NCBI GenBank assembly: GCA_020723765.1
Contig: DYIF01000017.1
Coordinates: 1-48,106, forward strand
From: Elusimicrobium minutum
GTDB taxonomy: Bacteria; Elusimicrobiota; Elusimicrobia; Elusimicrobiales; UBA9959
Length of the DNA: 48,106 nt
Direction of reading: 5' to 3'
A model generated the notes under the pieces. The model had not been told where the DNA came from. It ran no database searches and saw nothing but the letters and a program-made list of their open reading frames with translations. The translations under genes and the position numbers were made by a program. The stretch's first letter is position 1. The number at the start of each line of letters is the position of its first letter. This document shows positions 1,095 through 15,636 of the stretch, piece by piece.

Positions 1095-1745
1095 TTAACT
1101 CTTTTTGTCCGCTTCGGCTTTCTTTTCGGTTGTTTTATCGTATATACCCAATATCTCTTTCTCTCTCGCCCTTTGTTTTTCTACCATACTATCCATTTCT
1201 TTGAACATATTTTCCGCTTTTTCTTTAACAAACATATAGTGTTTTTCTTCGAGAGTTTTCCTTAACGAGTTTTTATATTGGTCGTAAAAATTATTTTCTA
1301 AATTAAGATAAGCTAAAGAGTAAAAAGCTTTGGTCTCCGGGTCTTGCCATCTGTCTATTATTCTTACGCCAATTAGAACCTCATCTACAAACTCTCTTCG
1401 AGCGACTTCAATAAGCTCATTCACATTACCTTTTTGGGGATCGACGTAATCTTTATTGTTGCCGTAGTAGTCTTTATATAGTTTTTCCACATGAGTTCTT
1501 ATTTGAGAAGCTATTTCGGTTCTCCCTCTCGAATCAGCCGCTTCCCTCATAAGCATGGTGTGAGGTATATACTCCGAAATACCGACTCCGTAGTAGATAA
1601 ACGGAGAGTCTTTTTTAAACGCCTCCCCCCCTTTCATAACCCATTCGGGAGCGTTTTTAAGGTTCAAGGCCTGCGGCTCGTATTTTCTATTGGAAGCGCA
1701 GGCGGTCATTAATAGTCCCATTGCGATTAACGCTATTTTTTTCAT
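1095..1745 (-). CDS. LPP20-like outer-envelope lipoprotein
   Basis: A 216-residue lipoprotein. The signal peptide ends in lipobox LMTAC (Cys16), and the residues after it (ASNRK) lack the inner-membrane retention Asp, so outer-membrane sorting is likely. Residues 32-150 (PEWV, then IYYGVG, AADSRGRTEIASQIRTHVE, later DRWQDPETKAFYSLAYLN) follow the LPP20/FlgP-type pattern: a small alpha/beta domain seen in envelope and flagellar-associated lipoproteins. The C-terminal 60 residues are charged and helical, probably coiled coil. It is the last gene of the seven-gene operon, 9 nt after the previous gene and just before a strong terminator. Family membership is inferred from pattern; a role in bridging or sensing the envelope is only inference. 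Confidence 0.82.
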   Translation of the reverse strand: MKKIALIAMGLLMTACASNRKYEPQALNLKNAPEWVMKGGEAFKKDSPFIYYGVGISEYIPHTMLMREAADSRGRTEIASQIRTHVEKLYKDYYGNNKDYVDPQKGNVNELIEVARREFVDEVLIGVRIIDRWQDPETKAFYSLAYLNLENNFYDQYKNSLRKTLEEKHYMFVKEKAENMFKEMDSMVEKQRAREKEILGIYDKTTEKKAEADKKS

Positions 1746-1754
1746 TTTTTCCTC

Positions 1755-3170
1755 CTATTTGTAATAATTTTTTAGTTTTTCAACTAAAATCTTTGAGGCC
1801 TTCTTTAAGGTTTTGTCCGCTGAGTCGGAGAGAGCGTTTTGGCCGGAGCTTCCGTATCCGGTTTCGCCCGGCCCTTCTTCGGCGACGACCATATTCATAT
1901 CTATCACGGAATAAAGGTATATATAACTTTGAGAAGACGCCCTGTATAAATTATAATCGGCGAGTTTTTCGCTTTGAGCGTCTATTTTTATCAATAAATA
2001 ATAATCAAGATTTTCTTGCGATAATTTGGCCAACAAAGAATTGATGTCTTTTTCTTTTTGTTCGTTTCTTAGTATCGGGTCGAAACCGGAAGAGTTTATG
2101 GCGGATTTTATTATGTCGTTGGAGCCGTTGTAATCGGAAGAATTAAGTTTAACTTTAAAAACAACGGTTTTGTTCCTATGGAGAGTAATCCTTAAGGAAT
2201 TTGTTTTTAGAAAAGGATAATCCGAGGCGTATTCGCTTAAAACCGGCTCGGCGATTATCTGGGTTTCTTTGTAATAAGGGTCTATTTTGGATATATTTAT
2301 TTCCACTCTTCCGTCCTTGGCGGATTTGGCCTTGTCGGAATACAACTCGGCTCTACCTCTTACGCATTCGAATTTGACGGGAAGGTTTTCAATCGGAGCA
2401 TTTTTAAAATAAGCGGTGACATAAGGGGTTTTGTTCAAAAGCCTTCCGGATGCGGAGTATATGAATTTTTCGTCTGGCAAGACGAGATTTATAGAGTAAG
2501 AGATTTCTTGTATTTTGGAATCGAAAAACATCTCGGCGTCCAAATTTTTTTCCTCGTTGTCTTCTTTTATTCTTATTTTTATCGGTATGTCTTTAAAGTA
2601 TTCTCTTTTTAGCGAGTATCCTTTTGAGAAATCGGAAAGGGCGTTTAGGTATTTTCCGTTTTTAAAGTTTTTCTCGCCGTTTAAAGCGTAATCGTTAATT
2701 GCCGATATCCTTTTGTTTTCCTCCTCCAAGACGAGACGGTCGTAATCGGATTTGTCCAAATAAACTATGACCGTTACGGTTTTGTTGTTTGGGTAAAAAT
2801 CGTAATACTCTATTTTTCTACCTTTAAGTATGGAGTCTGCGCGAGTATTTATTATGTAGTCTATCTTTTCTTCTATTTGTTTTTTGTTCAAATTCAATAT
2901 CGAAACGAAATCGGATTTAACATAAACTTTTATGGACCTTAAAAGAGAATCGGTAGCCAAATCTTCCGCTTGGCGCCTTGCGGCTTGTATGTCTCCGTTT
3001 TTTATCTTCGCCGTCCCCTCCCCCATGTATATGTCTATGTTGTTTCTCGAGCGATACCTTTTAATTTCTTTTTTTATGGCGGCGTACTCCTCTTTATCGG
3101 GGTAAGAGAATAGGAGCACGCCGCAGCCTATAACGGTAAAAATTAAAACGCTATATTTTATATATTTCAT
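1755..3170 (-). CDS. LPP20/FlgT-like membrane-anchored envelope protein
   Basis: 471 residues with one hydrophobic N-terminal segment (about 5-22). VIGC at residues 13-16 could be a lipobox, but the hydrophobic run continues past it, so it may be an ordinary membrane anchor. The outside domain starts with a segment (about 47-140: YMGEGTAKIKNGDIQAARR, AEDLATDSLLRSIKVYVKS) typical of LPP20/FlgT-like N-terminal domains, ending in a predicted beta strand (TVTVIVYLDKSDY). The middle (210-330) looks beta-rich and Ig-like. The end (about 345-471: VFKVKLNSSDYNGSNDII, YYLLIKIDAQS, ADKTLKKASKILVEKL) resembles the CsgG/LpoB-type fold that reports on Ser/Thr-rich or helical envelope assemblies. It overlaps the FHA gene by 20 nt and precedes the LPP20 lipoprotein, so translation is probably coupled. 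Confidence 0.7.
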   Translation of the reverse strand: MKYIKYSVLIFTVIGCGVLLFSYPDKEEYAAIKKEIKRYRSRNNIDIYMGEGTAKIKNGDIQAARRQAEDLATDSLLRSIKVYVKSDFVSILNLNKKQIEEKIDYIINTRADSILKGRKIEYYDFYPNNKTVTVIVYLDKSDYDRLVLEEENKRISAINDYALNGEKNFKNGKYLNALSDFSKGYSLKREYFKDIPIKIRIKEDNEEKNLDAEMFFDSKIQEISYSINLVLPDEKFIYSASGRLLNKTPYVTAYFKNAPIENLPVKFECVRGRAELYSDKAKSAKDGRVEINISKIDPYYKETQIIAEPVLSEYASDYPFLKTNSLRITLHRNKTVVFKVKLNSSDYNGSNDIIKSAINSSGFDPILRNEQKEKDINSLLAKLSQENLDYYLLIKIDAQSEKLADYNLYRASSQSYIYLYSVIDMNMVVAEEGPGETGYGSSGQNALSDSADKTLKKASKILVEKLKNYYK

Positions 3171-5370
3171 AATTACCTCTATCGGTGTTCTTTTTAAATT
3201 CCACTCCCGGAATTAGGACTTCGTCTAAAATCTTGAAAATTTTAAAACCTTCGTAAGTAAAAAGGGTAAAATCGAAATCCCCATCTTGGCAAACCGATAT
3301 AAATCCGTTTAAAATCTTAAATTTCAACTTATTGGTTTCATTCGGAATTAAAACGGCCGTAAAATCTTTGGATTTCAAGAACAAAAATTTGGAATTCAAA
3401 GAATTGTCCGAATAAATTTTGGCGAAAATCGGATATCTATAGGATACTTTAATATTAGAATCCGTTTTTAATTCTTCGACGATTATCGGAGCTTCGTTTA
3501 TAAAAACGCCGTTCTTGGAATCGACATTTTTGACAAAAAACTTTTCTTGTTCAAAGACTATTTTCAAATGGCTGTCTCTGGATACGAAATCGTATAAGAG
3601 ATTAATGTCGGGTTTTTTAATGTTTTCTCTAAAAATTTCCACTTCTTTTTTAAAAAAAAGATATAAAGGAGCCGAAGCGTTTAGGTTATTCGGGTTTATA
3701 AAAGATAATTTCAAAGATTTTATTGAGCGAGTATTATTCAAGTCTTTATATAACATGTCCAGTTTTTTGTTGCGGAGATCGGTTTTTATTATTGTTTCAA
3801 CGGCTTTTTCTAAATTTAAATTCTTTATCATATTCAAAACTTCCGAGTATTCCTTTTCCTGCCTAACGGTTATTTCTTCGGCTTTTTCTTTTATTTCTTC
3901 AAACCCTATTCTTTTGTTTTCTTCCACGTAATAATTTTCTCCGACGATTTCGGATATCAATCTTTTCGCTTCTTCCGCTTTCCCTTCGGATATCAGCATA
4001 TTCGCTTTTATCTGTTTTTTCTTAATTTCGACTTCTTTTATAAACAAATCGATCTCGTTCATCTCTATTTTTTTCTTTATTTTATATAGTTCTTCCATCT
4101 CTTGGTCGTCGGGGATGATTCCTTTCAAATATTTGGCAAGTATGTTTTTAAATTTCAAAAAAGCGTTTTGAGCTTCATTGACGTTTCCTTTGGTAACGAA
4201 GTTAAGCCTTTCGTTTAAAGCGGAAAGCGAAGGGTCGTTTAGAAAACAAAGATAGGAATCCATTATCTCTTTTGCGACTATGAAATCGCCGTTTTTAAGA
4301 TACTCTTCTACCCTCTCTTTATCCAAACCCCATTTTTCTTTTTTAACAACGGAGTATTCGTTAAAAAAATCTTCCGATTCATTATGGTTTAGAAGCGATT
4401 TAATTTTCGATAATTTTTTCTCTTCTTCCACGGATAACTCCCCGGTCTTATCCCATTTTTCTTTCAAAGATTTCAAAGCCAAAAAAGCGTTTTCGGCTTC
4501 CTCCGGGTTATTAAAAGTTATAAATTCCAGTTTATGTTTCATCTCTTTAAGCTCTTCGTAGTTTAAAAATTCAAGCTTATCCATCAAGGCTTTTGCGGAA
4601 ACAAATCTGCCGTTTTCGATAAAATCTTTAAATTCGGATTTAAATTTTTTAAACTTAAAAAAATAATATGATTTTAAAGCTAACTTATACAAAAACTTAA
4701 GAATTAAAAAAAACAAAATAAAGCTTATTACGCCGAAGGTTATCGCGGATAGGTATTTTACCAAAGCGTAGAAAAATTTTATCAAGTTTTCAAAAAAAGG
4801 CTTTGTAAAAATAGCGGAAGACTCAACTACGCTGTTTTTCGATACAGAATCGACTATCTTTAATTCTATTTTTCCTTTCCAAAAATGTCCGGGGACGGAA
4901 GAATAAAAACATTGGGCGTAGTAATTAGGAGCGACTTCCTGAGTGGCCGATTTTATCAAAACGGAAGGGTCTTTTATGACGTTCATTCTGGCTAAGTATT
5001 TGTTTATTCTCTCGACCGTTTTTTTTCTCTCTTCCTCGTTTATGACCACCTTCCACCCGTCGTATAAATATAACTGGGCGTTTATCAAACTTCTCATCCT
5101 CTGGACAAAATCCCTCTTACTCCCTTCTATTCTGCCGATGGAACCGACCCAGCCTTTCAGTTTCTTCTCCTTTATTTTTTGGCTTAAATCTTTCCCCATA
5201 TTCATAATGGATTCTTCGTAATTCACGGCGATGGGGATTTTTTTGTATTCGTAATTGTAATACAAGTATCCGTATATAAAAGTAGAAACCGCCAATGCTC
5301 CCAAAGCAATTTTAATGAAATTTAAGAATTTATTTTCGTAAATTATTTTTTTGACTAAATTCGAATACAT
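3151..5370 (-). CDS. Two-pass membrane protein with cytoplasmic FHA domain
   Basis: 739 residues. Transmembrane segment 1 lies at about 19-39, an outside domain at about 40-195, transmembrane segment 2 at about 205-235, then a long helical and coiled-coil cytoplasmic region to about 560 containing two similar blocks (FxSAKALMDKLEFLNYEEL and FIVAKEIMDSYLCFLNDPS) that look like internal duplication. An FHA-like domain follows (about 570-655) with the signature VSRDSH...VKNVDSKNGVFIN, matching the usual phosphothreonine-binding SRxH and SxNG motifs. The start at 5370 lies 41 nt inside the kinase gene but is preceded by GGAGGAGG at ideal spacing, which settles it. FHA domains bind phosphothreonine, so the kinase encoded next to it is the obvious partner. 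The outside domain is not recognised. Confidence 0.8.
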   Translation of the reverse strand: MYSNLVKKIIYENKFLNFIKIALGALAVSTFIYGYLYYNYEYKKIPIAVNYEESIMNMGKDLSQKIKEKKLKGWVGSIGRIEGSKRDFVQRMRSLINAQLYLYDGWKVVINEEERKKTVERINKYLARMNVIKDPSVLIKSATQEVAPNYYAQCFYSSVPGHFWKGKIELKIVDSVSKNSVVESSAIFTKPFFENLIKFFYALVKYLSAITFGVISFILFFLILKFLYKLALKSYYFFKFKKFKSEFKDFIENGRFVSAKALMDKLEFLNYEELKEMKHKLEFITFNNPEEAENAFLALKSLKEKWDKTGELSVEEEKKLSKIKSLLNHNESEDFFNEYSVVKKEKWGLDKERVEEYLKNGDFIVAKEIMDSYLCFLNDPSLSALNERLNFVTKGNVNEAQNAFLKFKNILAKYLKGIIPDDQEMEELYKIKKKIEMNEIDLFIKEVEIKKKQIKANMLISEGKAEEAKRLISEIVGENYYVEENKRIGFEEIKEKAEEITVRQEKEYSEVLNMIKNLNLEKAVETIIKTDLRNKKLDMLYKDLNNTRSIKSLKLSFINPNNLNASAPLYLFFKKEVEIFRENIKKPDINLLYDFVSRDSHLKIVFEQEKFFVKNVDSKNGVFINEAPIIVEELKTDSNIKVSYRYPIFAKIYSDNSLNSKFLFLKSKDFTAVLIPNETNKLKFKILNGFISVCQDGDFDFTLFTYEGFKIFKILDEVLIPGVEFKKNTDRGNYEIYKI

Positions 5371-6292
5371 TTTTAACCTCCTCCAAAGACGGCCTTAAAT
5401 CCGGGTTAGGGTCTAAACATTTGTCTATAATTTCGCAAATTTCTAACGGAAGAGCCGAAACGGCATCTTTTAACGGAATGTACGATTTTTTTTCCTTTTG
5501 GTATATTATGTCCATTCCGCTTCCTTTAAAAGGCGGCTCGCCAGCCAACAATTCGTAAGCTAAAACTCCCAAAGAATATATGTCGCTTTTAAAAGAATGC
5601 CTTCCCAAGTGTTGTTCGTAAGCCATATACAAAGGAGTTCCGAAGAAATCTTTTCCGGTCAATGCGGTTACGGTGTTTTTTATTTCGAAAGCGATGTCGA
5701 AATCGGTAAGTTTTATCGTGTTTTTTTCGTCTATCATGACATTGGAAGGTTTTATGTCCCTGTGAACGATATTTTTGGAGTGAGAATAAATCAAAGCTTC
5801 GCAGAGAGCCGAGCATATCTCGGCTGTTTGAAAGAGATCTAAATTGCCTTTTTCGGATATTATTTTGTATAAGTCTTTGCCTTTAATAAATTCCATCGCC
5901 ATGTTTATTTTGCCTCCGATAATATGTAAGTCGTATATCTTGACTATGTTTTTATGGTCGAATGTTTTTAAAATGTTTATTTTTTTGTATATCTTCTCCA
6001 GTTCTTTTGTCCCCAGATTTATTTCTTCTTTAAAAACCTTCAATGCGAATTTAAAACCCGGGTTAGATTTATAATAAGCTTCCTTTATTACCGCCATCCC
6101 CCCGCTCGATATTTCTCTTAATATTACGATATCCGATTCGCGATTTGATACCGCGACCGTTTCGTTAGGGTCTTTATCCGGCTCTTTGTATCTCTTAACA
6201 GATTCGGCTTCGTCTCCCAATTTTACCATAGTTCCGCACAAATCGCAGTAATGACCGTCCGGCACATCTTGTTTGCAATTTCTACAAATCAT
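5330..6292 (-). CDS. Zinc-ribbon Ser/Thr protein kinase with altered motifs
   Basis: 320 residues. An N-terminal zinc ribbon (Cys3, Cys6, Cys16, Cys19) is followed by a Hanks-type kinase domain (about 53-312). Seen directly: glycine loop SSGGMAV, ATP-binding Lys85 (FALK), catalytic HRDIKPSN at 177-184 and activation segment GTPLYMAYEQ. Three usual signatures are changed: DFG is DFD (197-199), the helix-C Glu position reads Lys, and APE is AYE. The catalytic Asp and metal-binding Asp remain, so it may be an active atypical kinase or a regulated near-pseudokinase. There is no transmembrane segment, unlike PknB-type kinases. SD GGAGGG sits 4 nt before ATG. It overlaps the FHA gene downstream and the DnaJ-cysteine-rich gene upstream (4 nt), suggesting a stoichiometric module. 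Confidence 0.9.
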   Translation of the reverse strand: MICRNCKQDVPDGHYCDLCGTMVKLGDEAESVKRYKEPDKDPNETVAVSNRESDIVILREISSGGMAVIKEAYYKSNPGFKFALKVFKEEINLGTKELEKIYKKINILKTFDHKNIVKIYDLHIIGGKINMAMEFIKGKDLYKIISEKGNLDLFQTAEICSALCEALIYSHSKNIVHRDIKPSNVMIDEKNTIKLTDFDIAFEIKNTVTALTGKDFFGTPLYMAYEQHLGRHSFKSDIYSLGVLAYELLAGEPPFKGSGMDIIYQKEKKSYIPLKDAVSALPLEICEIIDKCLDPNPDLRPSLEEVKNVFEFSQKNNLRK

Positions 6293-9027
6293 TTTCCCTC
6301 CGACTCGGACTTTCCAATTATTTTTTTAGAAATATCGGAAAGCGAAGAGGCGATTTCCGAGATTTTATTCGCGTTTATTTTTTCGTAATCCGCGTTATTG
6401 CATTCGTATGCGATTATCCCCACTTCGTCATATTCCTTTAAGTATTCTATTTTTACGGTCTTTTTGGAATCGAAAGGCAAATAAACCTTGCCATTATTTT
6501 CTATAATGTAATCCAAAAAAGCCTTTCCCAATGTTTCTACGATTTTACCCGCTTTAATTAAAAGTATTCCGTACAATCCTTTAGATTCGGCGAGTTTATA
6601 TAGTTCTTTCGCCGTTTTTTTAACGGATTCGTCGGATTTTACGGATGTTATAAAAGCGAGTCTTCTCGTGAGCTCTTGAGAAGAATATAAAGCCAATACG
6701 GATTCATCCGAAATTTTTTTCAACTCTTCAATCTTTTTATTTAAACCATTTTTATTTTTCCAAGAAAAAGAAAAATAAAAAATCAAAGATAATACGAACA
6801 AAACGATCAAGTAATCGATTCTCATATAATAAATCCAAAGATTTGTCCATAAATAAACGAAGAAAAACGTAAAATAAACCGCAATTTTAAACCGTCTAAA
6901 TTTAAAACCGTTCATCGGCAAAAACAAAAACAAGAAAGAAGAGAAAAGGAAATTTAAAGAAATGTTGGAGATAAGATATCCGATATAATAACTTTCTTTG
7001 GAAACCCGATATAAATATAAAACGAAAAATAAAATGTTTGAAATCCATAAATATTTGGATATCAAACCCCTTTGCGAGTTATAAATTTTTTCTAAAAAAT
7101 CTTTGGGATTTTGTTTTTTTTCTTCCTCTTCGGAATTTTCTTTTTTGTCTTCAATTTTGACTATGGATCCGTTGCGAATCGAGATCTCCGGGAAATAGCC
7201 GGATAATTCGGCGGAAATCTTTAAAGCGCATTCGAAAGATTCGTAATCCTCGGCTTTAAGGGATTTTTCCAAAAAAGCATATACTTTTTCGTAAAATTCG
7301 CCGATAATCAAAAAAGCGTAAAATAACTCCGTCTCTCCCTTTTTGCGGCAGATATCTTTTATTCTTTGGACAAGGTCAAAAAACTCCAAACTCCATTTTT
7401 TAAGGTCGGTATCCGATAAAGGTTTTATTCGCGTATCGTATATTTTATTAAAAACCAATAAAAGGATAACGCCGAAAACCTCGGTTTTCTTTAACAACTC
7501 TTCGGCTTTTGAAAATAACATTTCCAAAGGATAGTTTTCGGAAATCATTTTTAAAAACAAAGAACTCGCCGATAAAGATATCAAAACGGAATCTTTTGTC
7601 GTTTCTTGCAAAATAACCAATTTTTTTTCGGCCCCGGCGATGTCGTTTTTCTCGACATCTTCGGATATTTGAAAAGACAATGAATCGTTAAATTCTTTTA
7701 CCGGGTCGGAAGCGGAATATATGGAAATTTTTTCTCCGTCTTCGCTAAACAGAAAAACTTCGTAATTTTTATCTTCGTATAAATACTCTATTTTATAAAC
7801 GTCGATTTTAAAAAATTCGGTTTTTTCCAAAACGCTTCTTTCTCCGGAAGTCGCGGAGAATTCTTTTTTAAAAGAATTATTTTTATTATCTTCTATTTCA
7901 CCGTATTTTAAACTCAAATCAGGGTGAGGAATATTTATTTTAAAAGAGCCCAAATCGTCGGTTATTAAAGAAATAAATCCGCTCGGGTTTAGTTCTTCGA
8001 AAGAATCTCCGTATAAATAAGGAGATTTAACGAAAAGATTCTCGGGATATAAGTTTTTTATGTCGGTAAAAAATTCTTTTTTGGAAAAAGAAGCGTCGAC
8101 ATAAAGGTTTTTTATAAGCCTGCCCTCTCCTTCGCATTTTCGGCAAACGACCTTCCCGCTACCATCGCATTTTTTGCAGTTTACCGTTCCTCTTCCCAAA
8201 CAATAATGGCATACCGAGCTTCCCCGTCCATTACATTTATCGCATGTAAGATACCCCGATCCCAGGCAGGTTTTGCATACGACCGTTCCGCTTCCCCCGC
8301 ATACGGAACACACTTCCGTAATGTCGCCTGAAGAGTAGTTTTTTATAAAACCTTTACCGTCGCATCCGGAGCAAGTTTCTCTTCCGTTTCTACAAGAATA
8401 ATTTTTGCATTTAATTCTTCCTTTACCGTCGCATTTAATACAAATTACGCTTCCTCTGCCCGAGCAAACTCCGCATTCCACCATACCTTTGCCCGAACAA
8501 TCCGAACACCGCACTTTCCCCGCTCCGCCGCAGTCCTCGCAGTCGAAAACCTCGAATGTGCCGGGAATATCGTATTGGAATGAAGTTTCTTTAAATTCTT
8601 TGGGTACGGACAGGTTTTTCTCGTTCCATAGCAAGTATTTTCCCATATCTATCTTGTTTTTCGGATAATCAAAGCCGGAATAAGGCCTTATTTTTTCCAA
8701 AACCTCTCTTTTTTCGTTTAATACGGAAATTTTTACCGAGTAGTAAGGGATAAGTTTTGCGGATTTTATTACGGCTTTGTCGAAAAGGTCTTTATGATTA
8801 TGATAAGGGATAGAATCGACCCATTCGTTTAGCCGTTTCTTCAAAAAATCAATTTGATCTTGGGAGAGTTCTTTCGATTTAAAAATTTCTTTGGATATTA
8901 TTTTTTCGGCTTCGTTAAAATCGAAGTTTTTTTGATTTAATTTTTCTCCGCAATTTTTGCAATAATTGCTAACCGTTCTGTTGGCGGTATTGCATATATG
9001 GCAGTTTAATATCTTTTCAAATACCAT
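6289..9027 (-). CDS. Membrane protein with 12 DnaJ-type CxxCxGxG motifs
   Basis: 912 residues. An N-terminal zinc ribbon (CHIC...CKNC, about 9-31) precedes a remarkable cysteine region (about 160-310) with eleven CxxCxGxG motifs and one variant (CKNYSCRNG), roughly every 11 residues. DnaJ itself has four, paired on two zincs, so this could bind about six zincs in an elongated hairpin. There is no J domain. The middle region (330-640) is mixed and unrecognised. About four transmembrane helices lie between 670 and 770, followed by a C-terminal soluble domain to 912. Such cysteine domains bind unfolded protein or act as thiol/zinc scaffolds in other families. Encoded between the unknown 209-residue protein (11-nt overlap) and the kinase (4-nt overlap). 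A client-binding or redox-sensing role is inference. Confidence 0.8.
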   Translation of the reverse strand: MVFEKILNCHICNTANRTVSNYCKNCGEKLNQKNFDFNEAEKIISKEIFKSKELSQDQIDFLKKRLNEWVDSIPYHNHKDLFDKAVIKSAKLIPYYSVKISVLNEKREVLEKIRPYSGFDYPKNKIDMGKYLLWNEKNLSVPKEFKETSFQYDIPGTFEVFDCEDCGGAGKVRCSDCSGKGMVECGVCSGRGSVICIKCDGKGRIKCKNYSCRNGRETCSGCDGKGFIKNYSSGDITEVCSVCGGSGTVVCKTCLGSGYLTCDKCNGRGSSVCHYCLGRGTVNCKKCDGSGKVVCRKCEGEGRLIKNLYVDASFSKKEFFTDIKNLYPENLFVKSPYLYGDSFEELNPSGFISLITDDLGSFKINIPHPDLSLKYGEIEDNKNNSFKKEFSATSGERSVLEKTEFFKIDVYKIEYLYEDKNYEVFLFSEDGEKISIYSASDPVKEFNDSLSFQISEDVEKNDIAGAEKKLVILQETTKDSVLISLSASSLFLKMISENYPLEMLFSKAEELLKKTEVFGVILLLVFNKIYDTRIKPLSDTDLKKWSLEFFDLVQRIKDICRKKGETELFYAFLIIGEFYEKVYAFLEKSLKAEDYESFECALKISAELSGYFPEISIRNGSIVKIEDKKENSEEEEKKQNPKDFLEKIYNSQRGLISKYLWISNILFFVLYLYRVSKESYYIGYLISNISLNFLFSSFLFLFLPMNGFKFRRFKIAVYFTFFFVYLWTNLWIYYMRIDYLIVLFVLSLIFYFSFSWKNKNGLNKKIEELKKISDESVLALYSSQELTRRLAFITSVKSDESVKKTAKELYKLAESKGLYGILLIKAGKIVETLGKAFLDYIIENNGKVYLPFDSKKTVKIEYLKEYDEVGIIAYECNNADYEKINANKISEIASSLSDISKKIIGKSESEGK

Positions 9028-9646
9028 AAATTTCTCTTAATTCTTTAAGTATTTTAAAATAATCCGAAAGTTTTTCGGATTTGTTTCCATATTTAACATA
9101 ACTTTCTATTTCCATTAATATAAGAGCTTTTTCTCCTTCTATCAAATAAACTTCAGCATTTGAAGGATCGGCAAAAGGTGCGAATAAAACAAATAAAACT
9201 ATCGGAGTTATGTTCCATACAAAAGCCGATTCGGCGATTGCCGATATTTTTTGATATAAAACCAAATCCTCCGGATTTGCGTTTTTTGACAAGTTTGATT
9301 TATCCGACATTATTTTAGCGGTTTCCAAAGCGTTTCTTAGGTTTTTTAGAGTTAGAAAATTTTGCCTCGGGAGCTTTATGTCCCAATAAATCTTCCATAA
9401 AATTAAAGCATATCTTATTAAAGGGATATAACCGCTTAAAAGGTTATCCAAATCTTTTAAATCCATAGACCTTAATCTTTCGTATCTTAAAATGGATATG
9501 CTTTTATCCGGGAAGTTCGAATAATAATCCAATCTATCAACTCTATTACCTATTTCTATTGGTATATCTTCCATCTCCTTAAATAAAGAAATCGCTTTTT
9601 TAATATCGAACTTCCTTTCTATCATTATTTCTTTTAATTCTTTCAT
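9017..9646 (-). CDS. Unknown helical protein of the ClpX/kinase operon
   Basis: 209 residues, no family recognised. It appears mostly helical. One long hydrophobic stretch (ESAFVWNITPIVLFVLFAPF, about 138-157) could be a membrane helix or a buried hairpin. There is no signal peptide or cysteine motif. SD GGGGGA precedes the ATG, and the end overlaps the next gene by 11 nt. Its position between the ClpX-like ATPase and the cysteine-rich membrane protein suggests an adaptor or inhibitor in the same system, but nothing in the sequence proves that. Confidence 0.75.
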   Translation of the reverse strand: MKELKEIMIERKFDIKKAISLFKEMEDIPIEIGNRVDRLDYYSNFPDKSISILRYERLRSMDLKDLDNLLSGYIPLIRYALILWKIYWDIKLPRQNFLTLKNLRNALETAKIMSDKSNLSKNANPEDLVLYQKISAIAESAFVWNITPIVLFVLFAPFADPSNAEVYLIEGEKALILMEIESYVKYGNKSEKLSDYFKILKELREIYGI

Positions 9647-9663: not shown

Positions 9664-11241
9664 TTAACCTATTTTTATGTTGTTCTTAAGAATTTCAAAA
9701 AACTTTTTTTCCATTATGGAGTACAAAGACCTCGCCCCCGTGTCCATTTTATTTGCCTCTTCGGCTATTTCGGTTATTACTTTATCGTCGAATTTATAAT
9801 CTATCCCGCTTTTTTCAAGCATTTTTTCATATAGCTTTATCGGAGAGTCTTTGCTTTGTTTTAATATGTTTTCCAAATCTTTTTCGGACAAGTTTTTTAA
9901 GGCGATTATGGAAGGAAACCTTCCGATTATTTCCGGGATAAAACCGAAGTTTTCCAAATCGGCATTAACCACCTGCTTTGAAAGCTCCGAATCGGATTGT
10001 TTGGAGGCAGAGAAACCTATAGGAGTTTTGTTTTTTATTCTTTCCTCTATTATTTTATCCAAACCGACAAAAGCCCCCGCGGCAATGAAAAGAACGTTGG
10101 ATATGTCGTACCCTTTTACTTCTCTAAATATTCTAATTCCGTGGTCGTGGCCGTATATGACCTCGTCTTCTTCAAGTATTTTAAGCAACTCCTCCTGAAC
10201 GCATCTTCCGCTTACGTCTTTATTGGAATAATGCTGATAAAAACTCCCTTGGGAAGCTATTTTGTCTATTTCGTCTATGAATATTATCCCGTTTCTCGCA
10301 AGCCTCGTGTCTCCGTCGGCTTCCTCATATAGCTTTACTATCATATCTTCCACATTAAGCCCGACATATCCCGTTTCGGTGTATTGGGTCGCGTTTACTT
10401 TGACGAAAGGAACTTTTAAAAATTTGGATATCAAATGGGCTATGTAGCTTTTTCCCGTTCCTGTGGGGCCTATCATCAATATGTTGCCTTTTACCGTTTT
10501 TTCGTTTTCCCTCTTGGAAACGCAGGCCAACATATGCCTATAAACCGCCACGGAAATCTGTTTTAGAGCCTCGTCCTGTCCGATAACGTAAGACCTTAAA
10601 TAAGAATAGAGTTTTTGAGGGAAATTGGGATTCAGATTGGAACCGTATATGGAGTCTATCTCTTTTTTAAAAATCTTTTTCTTATTGGAATCTCTTATAG
10701 GCAAAAAGTATTTTACTATTTCCGAACCGATCTCTATCCTTTCGGAATTGAAATCTTTATAAGCCAATAGGCCGCTTCTAACGAGCTTGGAATCCCGCGC
10801 TAAACTCGCGTAAATTTCAAGCATCGGTTCGCCGGTAAAAAAAGAAATTTTTTTTATCATGTCTTTTTTTCTGTTGTCGTAAGCGAATTCTTCGTAAAAA
10901 TAATAATATATATACAAATAAACCAAAACCCTTTCGGATTGGGTTAACGAAAGCTTGTTCATCTTCATTTCCGGCTTTAAGAAAAAACCGTTTTCTTCCC
11001 CGACTATGACATAATCTCTTATTCTTCCGTAATATTTTTTTAATTCGGCCAAAGCGGAGTTTTCTATAATTTCTTTTTCCAAATCCTCTTCGGAATTTTT
11101 ATTCATTCTATCGTTTTCGAGATTTAAAAACCGCTTTGAGTTTTTTCTAAACCCGAAATCGTCGAAGTTTCTAAACGCTTCGCCGAATTCCATTATCCTC
11201 GTAAAATAACCGTTTATTATTTCTTTGCTTACTTTTCTCAT
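9664..11241 (-). CDS. ClpX-like AAA+ unfoldase with novel N-terminal domain
   Basis: 525 residues. The C-terminal 320 residues are a ClpX/HslU-type AAA+ module: Walker A GPTGTGKS (258-265), pore loop GYVG (291-294), Walker B FIDEID (321-326), arginine/sensor region RFPSIIAL and sensor-2 GAR near 504. IGF at 408-410 lies where ClpX carries its ClpP-docking loop, so pairing with ClpP is possible. The ClpX zinc-binding domain is absent, replaced by about 200 residues with a helical part and a winged-helix-like segment (LSLTQSERVLVYLY...SKLVRSGLLAY). Neither clpP nor trigger factor lies nearby, so this is likely a specialised paralogue. It is the first gene of the operon (SD GGAGGG), with its own promoter and inverted-repeat operator at 11341-11375. 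Confidence 0.88.
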   Translation of the reverse strand: MRKVSKEIINGYFTRIMEFGEAFRNFDDFGFRKNSKRFLNLENDRMNKNSEEDLEKEIIENSALAELKKYYGRIRDYVIVGEENGFFLKPEMKMNKLSLTQSERVLVYLYIYYYFYEEFAYDNRKKDMIKKISFFTGEPMLEIYASLARDSKLVRSGLLAYKDFNSERIEIGSEIVKYFLPIRDSNKKKIFKKEIDSIYGSNLNPNFPQKLYSYLRSYVIGQDEALKQISVAVYRHMLACVSKRENEKTVKGNILMIGPTGTGKSYIAHLISKFLKVPFVKVNATQYTETGYVGLNVEDMIVKLYEEADGDTRLARNGIIFIDEIDKIASQGSFYQHYSNKDVSGRCVQEELLKILEEDEVIYGHDHGIRIFREVKGYDISNVLFIAAGAFVGLDKIIEERIKNKTPIGFSASKQSDSELSKQVVNADLENFGFIPEIIGRFPSIIALKNLSEKDLENILKQSKDSPIKLYEKMLEKSGIDYKFDDKVITEIAEEANKMDTGARSLYSIMEKKFFEILKNNIKIG

Positions 11242-11340: not shown

Positions 11341-11375
11341 ATTGTAGCACACCGTTGCGACATATTTTTGTCGCA
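11341..11375 (-). promoter_or_regulatory. Operator and extended -10 promoter of ClpX/kinase operon
   Basis: On the minus strand a perfect inverted repeat TGCGACA-N6-TGTCGCA (11356-11375) is followed after exactly 9 nt by TACAAT (11341-11346), with an upstream TGC making an extended -10. There is no good -35; the repeat covers that region. The same layout, same arms and same 9-nt gap occur before sbcD. The leader to the ClpX start is about 95 nt. Whether the site binds a repressor or activator cannot be told. Confidence 0.72.
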
Positions 11376-11461
11376 TATTTTTTTAAGCTAAAATGCCCCA
11401 AAAACGATATTTTTAATTAAAAATAAAATTTTGATTATGTTTTTTTTAAAAAAGAAAATTT

Positions 11462-14446
11462 TTAATAATAAATTTTTATTCCGCTTCCTTGTTTTGAAGG
11501 GATAACCTCTATTTTAGAAGTTATTCTGTTCTTTATCTCGTCGACATGAGATATTATCCCGACTACCCTTCCGTCTTTGGAGAGGTTTTCTATAACCTTT
11601 AAGCATCCGTCCAGAATAGAGGAGTCCAAAGAACCGAAACCCTCGTCTATAAAAACCGACTCCATGGATATTCCGCCCGAATAGCTTTGAACCACATCGG
11701 AAAGCCCCAAAGCCAAAGACAGCGAAGCCAAAAAGCTCTCCCCGCCAGAAAGCGTATAGACGTCTCTCAGTTGAGAAGTATATGTATCAAAAACGTTTAT
11801 ATCAAGCCCCAAGGCAAGCCTCTTATCCCCGCCTTTTTTTCGCTCAAGCTCAAACCTTGAAGTAATCTCGTACAATCTTTTTGAAGCGTAATACAAAACC
11901 TCTTCAAAAAAAGCGGATAAAACGTATCTTTGCAAAGATAATTTGTGAGGGTTATTCCCCGATACCATGTCCGATAATTTTTTAGAAAGTTCGTACTCCG
12001 CTTCCAAACCGGAAAGTTCTTTTAAAGCGGATTCCATCATGGAGATGTATTTTTCGGTTTCTTCTATGTTTTTTTCAATTTTCGCGAGATTTTTCTCGGC
12101 CGTTATTTTTTCTTCTTCCGCTTTTTCCTTTTTATTTTTAAATTCCGAAATATTGGGTTTTTTGGCTCCGGTAAGTTTTTCTTTTAAAGTTTTAAGATTG
12201 TTTTTTACAATCTCGTATTTCCTCTCAAACTCTCTTAAATCCCTATCCAGTTCTTTATACTCTTTCTCCTCAATCAAAGCCGAAAAATAATCCTCTATGT
12301 TTTTAAAGCCTTTTTCCGTTAATTTATTCTCAAAATTGTTTTTGGCGATATCCAAATTCTTCCTTCTTTTTTCAATCTCCGATTCGGCTTTTTCTTTTTC
12401 TTTTTTGATTGTTTCGTATTCTTTTTCGGCTTTTTTGGCTTTTTCTTCTATTTCTTCTATCTTCAAAGAAAGCGAAGACGATTCTTTTTTCAAACTTTCA
12501 AATCTTTCCATGAAAATATCCGGGGATATTCCTATGTCTTTATTTATTTGCTCCATTTTAGCCAGAAAAGCGGACTTTGTCGTTTCAAAACCTTTTTTCT
12601 TTTCTTTTTTTAATTCTATTTTTTCCGATAGAGCGTCAAGCTCTTTTTGAAGTTTTTCGGTTTCTTTTTCCAAACTCTCAAATTCTTCCGCGTTTTCTTT
12701 GGCTTTTTTTAATTTCGATTCTATTTGCGAAAACTCTTCTTTTTTGATTTTTTCGACGAATTCTTTGAGCGTTTCGAGTTTCGCCTCGATTTTCGACTTT
12801 GTTTTATCAAGTTCGCTTATTTCTTTTCCAACCGAAGAAAGTTTTTTGGAAATTTCATCCATTTTTTTATCTATTTCAAACAAAGAAACATCGATTTTTT
12901 TATTATCGCCGAACTTCGCTTTTAAAGGATGATGGGTAGAACCGCAAACGGGACATGGAGAGCCTTCTTTTAGAGATAGAGCGAGATTTGAAACGACGCT
13001 TTTTTCAAGATTTTTTGCAGCTTCCTCTCTTTCCAATTTTATTTTTTCAAACTCGGATTGCAATTTTCTTTCTTCATCCTTCTTTTTTTCCAACTCCTCG
13101 TCTATTTCTTTAAATTCCGTTTTTAGTTTGCCAAAAACTTGTTTTTTCTCGGATAATTCCATGTATTCTTCGTATGTTTTTTTAAGTTTTTCATATTCCG
13201 TTTGAGATTTTGCGATTTCTTTTTTTCTTCTTTCCCTTTTTTCAATATCCGTTTTTAGCTTATCTTTTCTATTAATCGCTTCGTTAAGTTCGTTTGAAAT
13301 TTTCAAAATCTCCAAATCGGTCTTTTTAATCTTATCTTTTAAATCTTTTAATTCTTCTATCTTTGAAATCTGTTTTTCCATATAAGATATGGAACTATCC
13401 GCTTCTTTTTTCTTTTCTTTTAACTTATCGATTCCTTGATATTCTTTTAACGCCGAATCTTTGTTTTTTCCGGAAACCTGAAATCTTTTCTTTATTTCTT
13501 CAATTTCCTCTTCCTTATCCGAAACTTCTTTTTCGGCGTTTAAAAACCTTTCCGAAACATCGGATATTTTTTGAGCCTCGAGGGCTCTATTTAGGATTTC
13601 TTTCTTTTTGTCGTATTCTTTTTTAACCGAATTCATTTTGTAAAATTCCGACTCCGTTTTTTCGTATTCTTCGAAATTTTTAAAAGTTTCCAACGCTTTT
13701 CTATAATCCTCTTCGGCTTTTTTCAACTTGGCGCCTAAAACCGAAGCGTCTTTTTGAATTTTTCCTTTTTCTTTTATTTGAACCTCTCTTTTGGCTTTAA
13801 TCTCTTCCAAATCGGCCGAAGAGGAGGCTTGGAGGACGGTTTCTATTTTGCTTCTCGTTTCTTGAGTTTTTTGAGTTATTTCTCTTAATTTTTCTTTCAA
13901 TTTTTCTTCGATTTTCTCGTATATCTCGGTTCTAAAAAGCTTTTTTAATATTTCCTCTTTTTGGTTGGAATCGGAAAACAAAAACTTTTGGAATTGGTTT
14001 TGAGGCAAAATCATTATTTGAGTAAACTGCTCGGCGTTTAGGCCCATTATTTTTTTAATCTCTTCGTCGAAATCTTTTCCCTTCTTATAATTAAAAAATT
14101 TTTTCTCCCCCCCTTCCTTCTTCCACAAACTGACGGAATTTTCGGACTTAGAAGATCTAAGGTATCTTTTTACTCCGTAAACCCCGCTTCTCAAAGAAAA
14201 CTCAAATTCTACGTAACTATCTTCTTTGGGAGAAGAGAAATCGCTTATCATGTCATTTTTATCTCTATATAACGAGGAAGATTTGCCGAAAAGGGCGTAT
14301 GTAACGGCGTCGAGTATGGTGGTTTTTCCCGCTCCCGTAGGGCCGGTTATAAGAAAAACGGATGAATTAGAAAGTTTTTCAAAATCTATTTCGGTTTCGG
14401 ATTTATAAGCCCCGAAACCTTTCATTTTAAGCTTTAAAGGCTTCAT
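11462..14446 (-). CDS. sbcC: Exonuclease subunit SbcC (Rad50 family)
   Basis: 994 residues. The ATPase and coiled-coil subunit of the SbcCD nuclease, which opens DNA hairpins and trims blocked ends. Seen: Walker A GPTGAGKT (35-42), long heptad-rich coiled coils on both sides of a zinc hook (SPCPVCG, near residue 497), ABC signature LSGGES and Walker B VFIDEGFGSLD near the C-terminus. Length is normal for the family. The ATG overlaps the sbcD stop by 4 nt, so the two are translated together. The 220-nt space after it holds the next operon's promoter and only an A/T-rich palindrome (11409-11424), with no clear terminator; some read-through into the ClpX operon is possible. Confidence 0.97.
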   Translation of the reverse strand: MKPLKLKMKGFGAYKSETEIDFEKLSNSSVFLITGPTGAGKTTILDAVTYALFGKSSSLYRDKNDMISDFSSPKEDSYVEFEFSLRSGVYGVKRYLRSSKSENSVSLWKKEGGEKKFFNYKKGKDFDEEIKKIMGLNAEQFTQIMILPQNQFQKFLFSDSNQKEEILKKLFRTEIYEKIEEKLKEKLREITQKTQETRSKIETVLQASSSADLEEIKAKREVQIKEKGKIQKDASVLGAKLKKAEEDYRKALETFKNFEEYEKTESEFYKMNSVKKEYDKKKEILNRALEAQKISDVSERFLNAEKEVSDKEEEIEEIKKRFQVSGKNKDSALKEYQGIDKLKEKKKEADSSISYMEKQISKIEELKDLKDKIKKTDLEILKISNELNEAINRKDKLKTDIEKRERRKKEIAKSQTEYEKLKKTYEEYMELSEKKQVFGKLKTEFKEIDEELEKKKDEERKLQSEFEKIKLEREEAAKNLEKSVVSNLALSLKEGSPCPVCGSTHHPLKAKFGDNKKIDVSLFEIDKKMDEISKKLSSVGKEISELDKTKSKIEAKLETLKEFVEKIKKEEFSQIESKLKKAKENAEEFESLEKETEKLQKELDALSEKIELKKEKKKGFETTKSAFLAKMEQINKDIGISPDIFMERFESLKKESSSLSLKIEEIEEKAKKAEKEYETIKKEKEKAESEIEKRRKNLDIAKNNFENKLTEKGFKNIEDYFSALIEEKEYKELDRDLREFERKYEIVKNNLKTLKEKLTGAKKPNISEFKNKKEKAEEEKITAEKNLAKIEKNIEETEKYISMMESALKELSGLEAEYELSKKLSDMVSGNNPHKLSLQRYVLSAFFEEVLYYASKRLYEITSRFELERKKGGDKRLALGLDINVFDTYTSQLRDVYTLSGGESFLASLSLALGLSDVVQSYSGGISMESVFIDEGFGSLDSSILDGCLKVIENLSKDGRVVGIISHVDEIKNRITSKIEVIPSKQGSGIKIYY

Positions 14447-15579
14447 ACGCCTTCCTCCTTGGATATATCTTTTAAAATCTCCTCTACCGCTTTAATTTCC
14501 TTTTTAGAAGGCTCTTCACCCCAGATATCTTTATAAAACTTTTCAAAGAGCCTTAAAGGGCTTTCGGATTTTTGTATCTCCTCGGTAGTTACGGAATATG
14601 AACGAATCGGAATATCGGGACGCTCTATCTTCAGTATGTTGGGATAAACCTTGGATATTTTTCCCACGGGGTCGTATATTATTTCTTTATCCAAAATATT
14701 GGCGAGTATATAATCGTCTTTATTACCGTCTTTTTCTCCGTTTTTTAATATGTCGTCGATTTTACCTTCCACTATTCTAAGGTCTCTTTTAAATTTAATC
14801 TCCAAATTTTCGGTTTTTACCTCGCCGTTTTTTCCGATATCCGCAAGAATATATCTTTTTTTATGATCGGCTTCGGAAAAAGAATATTTATAAGGAGAAC
14901 CGCTATAAACCAAATTGTTTCGTCCTTGAGGCTTATGAAGATGTCCGCAAGCGACATAAGAAAAATCCTTAAAAGCCGAAGGGTCTACCGCGTCGGTTCC
15001 TCCTACCGAAAAAGGCCTTTCGGACTCGGATGTCGCTCCGTTTTCTACGAAGAGATGAGCGAGCAAAACGTTTCTTGAAGAATTAAAAGATTCGGTTATC
15101 TTTTTAGATATTTTTTTAACGGCCTCGTCGTAAGTTTTTATTCCTTCGTCTTTTAGATTGGATTTTAAAAAATCCAAAGTCATATAAGGCAAAAACCAAA
15201 AAGAGACTTTCCCCCACTCGTCCTCCAATTTCAAAGGCTCGAAGACGTCTTTGAACGAAGTTTTTATGAACAATTTATTCGAACTGAATATTTTAGAGCC
15301 GAATGAAAGCCTTTCGGGGCTATCGTGATTTCCGTTTATTATAAGTATCGGGATTTTTCGGTCTATGATTATCTCGCTTAATATCTCGTCCAAAAGCCTA
15401 ACGGCATCCGGCGACGGTATGGACCTATCGTACAAATCGCCTGAAATTACAAGCGCCTCGGCTTTGTATTCTTTTATAAGACGCGAAAGCTGAGATAAGA
15501 CATAATGCTGGTCTTCAATCAAACTCCTTTCGTGAAGAAATCTCCCCACATGCCAATCAGAAGTGTGGATAAATCTCAT
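14443..15579 (-). CDS. sbcD: Exonuclease subunit SbcD (Mre11 family)
   Basis: 378 residues. The metallo-phosphoesterase nuclease partner of SbcC. The metal-binding motifs are all present: HTSDWHVG at the N-terminus, SGDLYDR, INGNHDSPERL and CGHLH. Residues after about 265 form the usual capping and SbcC-contact region. SD GGAGGGG precedes the ATG. The gene heads the sbcDC operon behind the inverted-repeat promoter at 15602-15636. Confidence 0.97.
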   Translation of the reverse strand: MRFIHTSDWHVGRFLHERSLIEDQHYVLSQLSRLIKEYKAEALVISGDLYDRSIPSPDAVRLLDEILSEIIIDRKIPILIINGNHDSPERLSFGSKIFSSNKLFIKTSFKDVFEPLKLEDEWGKVSFWFLPYMTLDFLKSNLKDEGIKTYDEAVKKISKKITESFNSSRNVLLAHLFVENGATSESERPFSVGGTDAVDPSAFKDFSYVACGHLHKPQGRNNLVYSGSPYKYSFSEADHKKRYILADIGKNGEVKTENLEIKFKRDLRIVEGKIDDILKNGEKDGNKDDYILANILDKEIIYDPVGKISKVYPNILKIERPDIPIRSYSVTTEEIQKSESPLRLFEKFYKDIWGEEPSKKEIKAVEEILKDISKEEGV

Positions 15580-15601
15580 ATCCCCTCCGTTTAATAAAAA
15601 T

Positions 15602-15636
15602 ATTATAACAAACTAATACGACACCTAATTGTCGCA
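15602..15636 (-). promoter_or_regulatory. Operator and extended -10 promoter of sbcDC
   Basis: On the minus strand TGCGACA-N6-TGTCGTA (15617-15636, one mismatch from a perfect inverted repeat) is followed after exactly 9 nt by TATAAT (15602-15607), with TGT just before it forming an extended -10. No -35 is evident, and the repeat covers that position. It is the twin of the site at 11341-11375. A damage- or stress-responsive regulator is a natural guess given sbcDC, but the motif is not a LexA box I recognise. Confidence 0.75.

Follow-up and report, generated by a model that had tools for sequence, protein, structure and literature searches.

Which regulator acts on the sbcDC operon of Elusimicrobium minutum and on the uncharacterised operon beside it? 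Both operons lie on the minus strand of a stretch of 48,106 nucleotides (assembly GCA_020723765.1, contig DYIF01000017.1, positions 1 to 48,106), the whole of which is called the window below, and both are preceded by the same palindrome at the same distance from an extended -10 element. The uncharacterised operon, which begins with a ClpX-like gene and contains a Ser/Thr protein kinase gene, is referred to as the ClpX/kinase operon. From the sequence comparisons presented here, the two promoters are quite probably part of an Elusimicrobiota DNA-damage regulon run by a homodimeric activator of the helix-turn-helix (HTH)-WYL-WCX type.

Two promoters of identical build

An earlier note on this DNA had described both promoters as having TGCGACA-N6-TGTCG(C/T)A placed exactly 9 nt upstream of TGnTAyAAT and no -35 element, and this description was found to be accurate. 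Specifically, each promoter consists of a 20-bp palindrome, 9 nt and an extended -10 (TGnTAyAAT), as follows.

11356..11375, minus strand: operator 1, of the ClpX/kinase operon, TGCGACA-N6-TGTCGCA, full sequence TGCGACAAAAATATGTCGCA (11375..11356)
11341..11349, minus strand: extended -10 of the ClpX/kinase-operon promoter, TGCTACAAT, hexamer at 11341-11346
15617..15636, minus strand: operator 2, of sbcDC, TGCGACA-N6-TGTCGTA, full sequence TGCGACAATTAGGTGTCGTA (15636..15617)
15602..15610, minus strand: extended -10 of the sbcDC promoter, TGTTATAAT, hexamer at 15602-15607

The 9 nt between operator 1 and the hexamer TACAAT (11346..11341) are ACGGTGTGC, and those between operator 2 and the hexamer TATAAT (15607..15602) are TTAGTTTGT. 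No -35 was found at either promoter, the best match to TTGACA among hexamers at spacers of 14-21 being 2/6. Counted back from the -10, in a promoter numbering that is itself sequence-inferred, the operator arms would span roughly -41 to -35 and -28 to -22, and the N6 core would occupy the usual place of the -35.

When up to two mismatches were allowed, the palindrome gave four rows in the window (the two sites, each on both strands) against 0.18 +/- 0.48 in 100 shuffles, and the composite of palindrome and -10 gave two matches against none in 300 dinucleotide shuffles. A chance origin of the window sites was ruled out by these shuffles together with reversed-pattern controls and the genome-wide counts given below, in agreement with the earlier judgement that such a coincidence was unlikely.

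The site in the E. minutum genome

We then consider the 2.1-Mb genome to which the window belongs (G000). The relaxed composite CGACA-N6-TGTCG-N11-TANNNT matched three times in this genome, before sbcDC, the ClpX/kinase operon and rmuC, against none for the reversed pattern. All three matches are on the coding strand and no more than 100 nt upstream of a gene start, and the -10 of the rmuC site ends 23 nt upstream of rmuC; random copies within genes, which the earlier note had named as a danger to its proposal, were not seen. As judged from their sequences, the targets of known function in this genome are all recombination-repair nucleases, standing beside the uncharacterised operon.

The palindrome with at most one mismatch was found genome-wide at the two window sites and before a map-wyl operon, and nowhere else. 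The map-wyl palindrome, TGTGACATATTTTTGTCATA (C29:6364-6383), is degenerate and lies 6 nt before map, just downstream of a TACAAT; it may serve autorepression or may be due to chance.

The site in Elusimicrobiota and beyond

The same composite was searched in 81 genomes of the phylum Elusimicrobiota, namely G000 and 80 relatives. It gave 775 matches, distributed over 61 of the 81 genomes; the reversed control gave 3, and a composite with the -10 shifted two nt closer gave 21. In 286 of 557 oriented palindrome contexts TANNNT stood at a gap of 11, the next commonest gap being 13 (86 contexts), in a sample that is biased because many of the loci were fetched by the composite itself. Across loci, the arms and the register of the -10 are constant, and the N6 core and the flanks of the palindrome vary.

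The recA loci were fetched by the RecA protein and not by the motif; a recA match was obtained in 79 genomes, of which 50 were examined. A palindrome with TANNNT was present in 36 of these 50 loci, in all 36 in the exact register, and the -10 elements at these sites are often weak (TAGACT, TAAGAT). The 14 recA loci with no site include that of G000, that of its sister G001, four loci of the family f2 and two at contig edges (L114, L196). The earlier note had said that sites before lexA/recA-like genes would support an SOS role of the operator, and such sites are indeed found in relatives, before recA and before other repair genes; together with the third genomic site before rmuC, they support its proposed link between the uncharacterised operon and DNA damage. 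The presence of the same operator in the same register at repair genes of relatives likewise supports one regulator for both window operons.

A search of 84,980 genomes for the exact 17-base form returned 59 stretches, 29 of which are in records labelled Elusimicrobia, Elusimicrobiota, Elusimicrobiales, Elusimicrobium or Proruminimicrobium. Three motif matches in one alphaproteobacterial metagenome-assembled genome lie inside repeated coding sequence, not at promoters, and were set aside. Of three matches in Omnitrophota, two have an HTH-WYL gene no farther than 5 kb away, and this gene is itself preceded by a palindrome at about 60 bp; the match at the Omnitrophota locus L160 falls within an open reading frame and was not counted as support. 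In another Omnitrophota locus, L166, three palindromes (sites 5297, 5506 and 7325) are found inside 2.1 kb, one of them 59 bp before an HTH-WYL gene and another that has a TATACT in register, ahead of a small lipoprotein-like gene.

Genes under the site in relatives

To describe the targets, the first gene downstream was assigned in six genomes of the family f1, part of G020, four f2 loci, G007/G017 and G000. A first gene was assigned to 137 of 143 oriented sites by a heuristic under which some short open reading frames may be spurious. The resulting set is rich in repair genes. recA lies downstream of a site in each of the seven f1 genomes G002, G003, G009, G011, G012, G020 and G036, and further targets identified by Pfam are ssb, RecQ, RadC, ComM/YifB, RmuC (that of G000, clustered with that of G002), and a UvrD-family helicase and a PD-(D/E)XK protein of the AddAB type. 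The set also includes a Pif1-like helicase with a C-terminal WYL domain, Cas3, C5- and N6-methylases, a YhcG-type nuclease, ORF6N, RhuM-Fic and Y1 transposases, and in f2 HTH-WYL genes themselves are among the targets.

Several of these loci deserve mention on their own account. The Pif1-like helicase that carries a WYL domain at its C-terminus is found widely and lies under a site in G012 (L393); at that of G000 (L015:8385-9917) no site was found. In G003, the gene next downstream of a composite site is cas3 (L381), which suggests that the CRISPR system of this genome may be under damage-linked control. A gene for an HTH and peptidase M78 (IrrE/ImmA-like) protein lies under a site in G020 (L052:2807-4048), and its product is a possible second damage regulator. 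In the f2 loci L046 (G053 C2:123500-143400), L057 and L058, sites and a WYL gene stand amid resolvase, ankyrin, AAA and DUF2779 genes, an arrangement that looks like a mobile or defence island; in such f2 clusters one palindrome is often shared by two divergent promoters. Y1-type transposase genes are directly downstream of 10 sites in five genomes (L321 among them).

With regard to the window genes themselves, the expectation that the site would be conserved before orthologues held in part. SbcD is rare, being present in 4 of the 81 genomes. The full architecture stands 45 bp upstream of sbcD in G034 (48% identity), as in G000; in G074 the palindrome alone was found, 94 bp upstream and with no -10 in register towards sbcD, and in G007 neither palindrome nor composite was found upstream of sbcD. 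ClpX-like genes (43-48% identity over the AAA region) lie close to the HTH-WYL gene in three genomes, G006, G047 and G034, and in G006 the full composite stands about 40 nt before the ClpX-like gene. At L157, a locus of Omnitrophota, an HTH-WYL gene lies about 60 bp beyond a site, and the gene after it encodes a homologue of the 912-residue protein of the ClpX/kinase operon (25% over 431 residues, E 1e-32). Because the ClpX-like and 912-residue homologues adjoin the site and WYL genes elsewhere, parts of the operon are linked to WYL regulators and to the site. The complete seven-gene operon was not met again among the relatives' loci examined.

A candidate HTH-WYL-WCX regulator

Two WYL-domain proteins are encoded in G000, a 510-residue helicase and a 307-residue HTH-WYL-WCX protein (C29:4678-5601, minus strand), the latter being the only HTH-WYL protein of this genome. 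HTH_11 and WYL were over the Pfam cut-off in the 307-residue protein, and WCX reached 20.9 bits, just under its cut-off of 23.9. The FRxxR stretch of the WYL domain, shared with known WYL activators, is present. A phmmer search of the PDB with this single protein gave nothing at E 0.01, and profile and fold searches later gave DriD and PafBC. Specifically, the AlphaFold model (predicted local distance difference test score 81.6, predicted template modelling score 0.58) was compared with the PDB by Foldseek, and DriD came first, followed by PafBC, CapW and BrxR.

A degenerate scan of the genome contigs for close relatives of the 307-residue protein found none. In a tree it groups with the HTH-WYL proteins of G013, G021 and G027 with support 97/96, but it forms a long branch, and its placement is insecure despite that support. 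The G013, G021 and G027 genes have a palindrome 45-50 bp upstream. Furthermore, 9 of 37 f2 HTH-WYL genes have the composite within 250 bp upstream (0.02 expected), and the composite is within 5 kb of 19 of the 37 (0.9 expected).

Site and gene are also associated by genome. The presence of an HTH-WYL gene in each genome and the coordinates used for these counts were compiled by hand, and G030, which has an 84-residue WYL frame only, was scored as lacking it. In f1, sites were present in all 40 genomes with an HTH-WYL gene and absent from five of the nine lacking the gene, the other four being drafts of 68-92% completeness (Fisher p = 7e-5, a guide only, the genomes being related). Sites and HTH-WYL gene are jointly missing in G001, G005, G008, G010 and G023.

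The half-site, its position and the missing -35 are those of DriD and PafBC, and therefore an activator of the DriD/PafBC kind is the best reading of the site, with the 307-residue protein as its likely binder in G000. A number of observations weigh against this. In G000, the palindrome before map-wyl is not only degenerate but out of register with any -10, and recA has no site (best match 8/14). Whole-chain TM-scores of the model to DriD are modest (about 0.47), and the linker between HTH and WYL is poorly predicted. Sites occur with no HTH-WYL gene detected in 6 of 81 genomes, of which G002, G016, G029 and G030 are drafts of 68-92% completeness and G057 and G060 are 97% and 99% complete. Nine f2 genomes have an HTH-WYL gene and no exact composite, and within f2 taken by itself the co-occurrence of site and gene does not reach significance (p = 0.11). 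In several relatives there are 2-4 HTH-WYL genes, any of which could encode the binder, and a LexA-type match is present in 17 of the 36 genomes whose recA has a site. Finally, the spacing from CGAC to GTCG is 8 here and 7 as printed for DriD.

Other proteins that could act at the site

Among the alternatives, an unrelated dimeric regulator that binds the site, with the WYL genes as mere members of its regulon, is unlikely but survives best. Other regulators do lie under sites, for example the HTH-peptidase M78 protein of G020. However, the association with HTH-WYL genes recurs in several branches and in two phyla, site and gene are absent together in the five genomes named above, and half-site and spacing agree with those of DriD and PafBC.

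Slightly less probable is that the palindrome is a LexA box, where a LexA-type repressor would cover the promoter until cleaved after damage. The targets are SOS-like, the LexA DNA-binding domain (PF01726) was matched in 47 of the 81 genomes, and in genus g4 an S24/LexA-like gene is divergent from recA. On the other hand, there was no PF01726 match in G000, whose S24 family was not searched genome-wide, nor in 19 of the 36 genomes in which a site precedes recA, and G005 and G010 have LexA matches and no sites. A repressor also would not need the layout seen here, with one fixed distance to an often weak -10 and no -35. The data thus favour a DriD/PafBC-like WYL activator over LexA, and LexA appears, from its domain matches, to be patchy in this order. 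Note that the S24/LexA-like gene of g4 adjoins a WYL-type site in 13 full-length loci (L103:2763-3416 in G035, for instance).

We consider it about equally improbable that the HTH-WYL protein binds the site as a repressor of the BrxR/CapW kind and blocks the -35 region. BrxR and CapW are WYL regulators of defence systems with the same fold, defence-type genes are among the targets, and the map-wyl palindrome just downstream of TACAAT is placed where it could serve autorepression; but a register that is fixed relative to a -10, itself often weak, and the missing -35 fit activation, and DriD and PafBC rank above BrxR and CapW among the structural matches. That the palindrome is a mobile or repetitive extragenic palindrome (REP)-like repeat spread by Y1 transposases, which do form a 10-member cluster among the site-assigned genes, is very improbable, since core and flanks vary while arms and -10 register are kept, the sites stand at promoters of unlike genes, and reversed and mis-spaced controls point to non-promoter sites being no commoner than chance.

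A proposed mode of action

With an HTH-WYL-WCX activator as the preferred reading, a mode of action may be outlined. A WYL dimer would bind CGACA-N6-TGTCG with the palindrome centre where sigma region 4 would otherwise meet the -35, and the bound dimer would let the housekeeping RNA polymerase use a promoter whose only element is an (extended) -10. The analogy with DriD and PafBC suggests that single-stranded DNA (ssDNA) in the WYL groove would switch the activator on. In G000, damage would then be expected to induce the SbcCD and RmuC nucleases and the operon for the ClpX-like, zinc-repeat, kinase and FHA proteins; in relatives, the output would also include RecA, SSB, RecQ, RadC, AddAB-like proteins and defence genes. 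From this analogy we infer that an ssDNA-triggered, -35-independent WYL activator may do much of the work of SOS.

A wider proposition, which we hold with less assurance but regard as somewhat more likely than not, is that in most of one Elusimicrobiota family such an activator serves instead of LexA as the master DNA-damage regulator. It would drive recA, ssb and others, up to some 50 -35-less promoters with a palindrome over the -35 position; repair would be tied to defence genes, CRISPR and restriction among them, and to a previously undescribed ClpX-like/zinc-repeat/kinase/FHA module that would be damage-inducible; and the unit of site and WYL gene would extend to Omnitrophota.

If so, SOS would be replaceable by direct ssDNA sensing and a -35-free promoter, with a WYL activator apparently in control of recA and a large part of the repair genes, in many cases in genomes with no LexA match. 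The operator would also be a ready means to draw up a list of damage-inducible genes for a phylum that is almost uncultured, and this list would take in uncharacterised genes such as the ClpX/kinase operon and defence systems.

Genes of the window

The genes of the two operons are listed below.

14443..15579, minus strand: sbcD, exonuclease subunit SbcD
11462..14446, minus strand: sbcC, 994 residues, overlapping sbcD; assigned from its position and from homologues adjoining sbcD elsewhere
9664..11241, minus strand: ClpX-like AAA+ protein, 525 residues, first gene of the ClpX/kinase operon
9017..9646, minus strand: 209-residue protein with no family match
6289..9027, minus strand: 912-residue protein with DnaJ-type CXXCXGXG zinc repeats, which are below the Pfam cut-off
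5330..6292, minus strand: Ser/Thr protein kinase, 320 residues
3151..5370, minus strand: 739-residue protein with an FHA domain
1755..3170, minus strand: 471-residue protein with no family match, overlapping the FHA gene
1095..1745, minus strand: LPP20-family lipoprotein

The ClpX-like protein is under the curated ClpX cut-offs, and its N-terminal ~200 residues had no match. The C-terminal half of the 912-residue protein had no family match, and its matches to phage and plasmid sequences were confined to a stretch inside residues 125-331, around the zinc repeats. PADLOC gave generic kinase matches only for the ClpX/kinase operon.

Comparison with known systems

WYL activators of DNA-damage genes are known in few cases, chiefly mycobacterial PafBC and Caulobacter DriD, and LexA is present in both. 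BrxR and CapW are repressors with local targets. In published work, as covered by titles, beginnings of abstracts and few subscription papers, no description of such a regulon in Elusimicrobia was found.

The closest likeness is to DriD of Caulobacter crescentus. According to a preprint (PMC12340889), DriD is a WYL activator that acts as a homodimer, recognises ATACGAC(X)7GTCGTAT and is switched on by ssDNA. This 20-bp pseudo-palindrome covers the -35, so that the two DNA-binding domains of the dimer lie on either side of sigma region 4, and its distance to a weak -10 is fixed. The HTH-WYL-WCX fold, the CGAC/GTCG half-sites in a palindrome of ~20 bp overlapping the -35, the fixed distance to a weak -10 and the DNA-damage targets are shared with the system described here. 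Unlike with DriD, there are tens of sites in many genomes here, including those of recA and ssb, and many of these genomes have no LexA match, whereas LexA is kept as the main regulator in Caulobacter, as stated in PMC12288472.

For mycobacteria, PMC5656591 gives the P1 motif of the RecA-NDp/P1 promoters as tTGTCRgtg-8nt-TannnT, in which the TGTC half-site stands 16 nt before TAnnnT, a distance identical to that seen here. PafBC is, according to PMC5656591 and PMC11804915, an ssDNA-dependent WYL activator (PMC11804915) that works by sigma adaptation (PMC11804915) with no sigma contact at the -35, and recA is one of its targets. It differs in being a heterodimer with a non-palindromic site, according to PMC6789036; here the palindrome is near-perfect and a single HTH-WYL gene is present.

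BrxR and CapW share the fold family and the association with defence genes, but the set described here is genome-wide and repair-centred with an activator-type layout. With LexA/SOS the system has SOS-type targets in common (recA, ssb and others in relatives), and it differs in operator and promoter logic and in that G000 has no match to the LexA DNA-binding domain. Taken together, the system is best read as a DriD/PafBC-like regulon that is unusually broad and counts recA as one of its most constant members; in the phylum that carries it, LexA has a patchy distribution.

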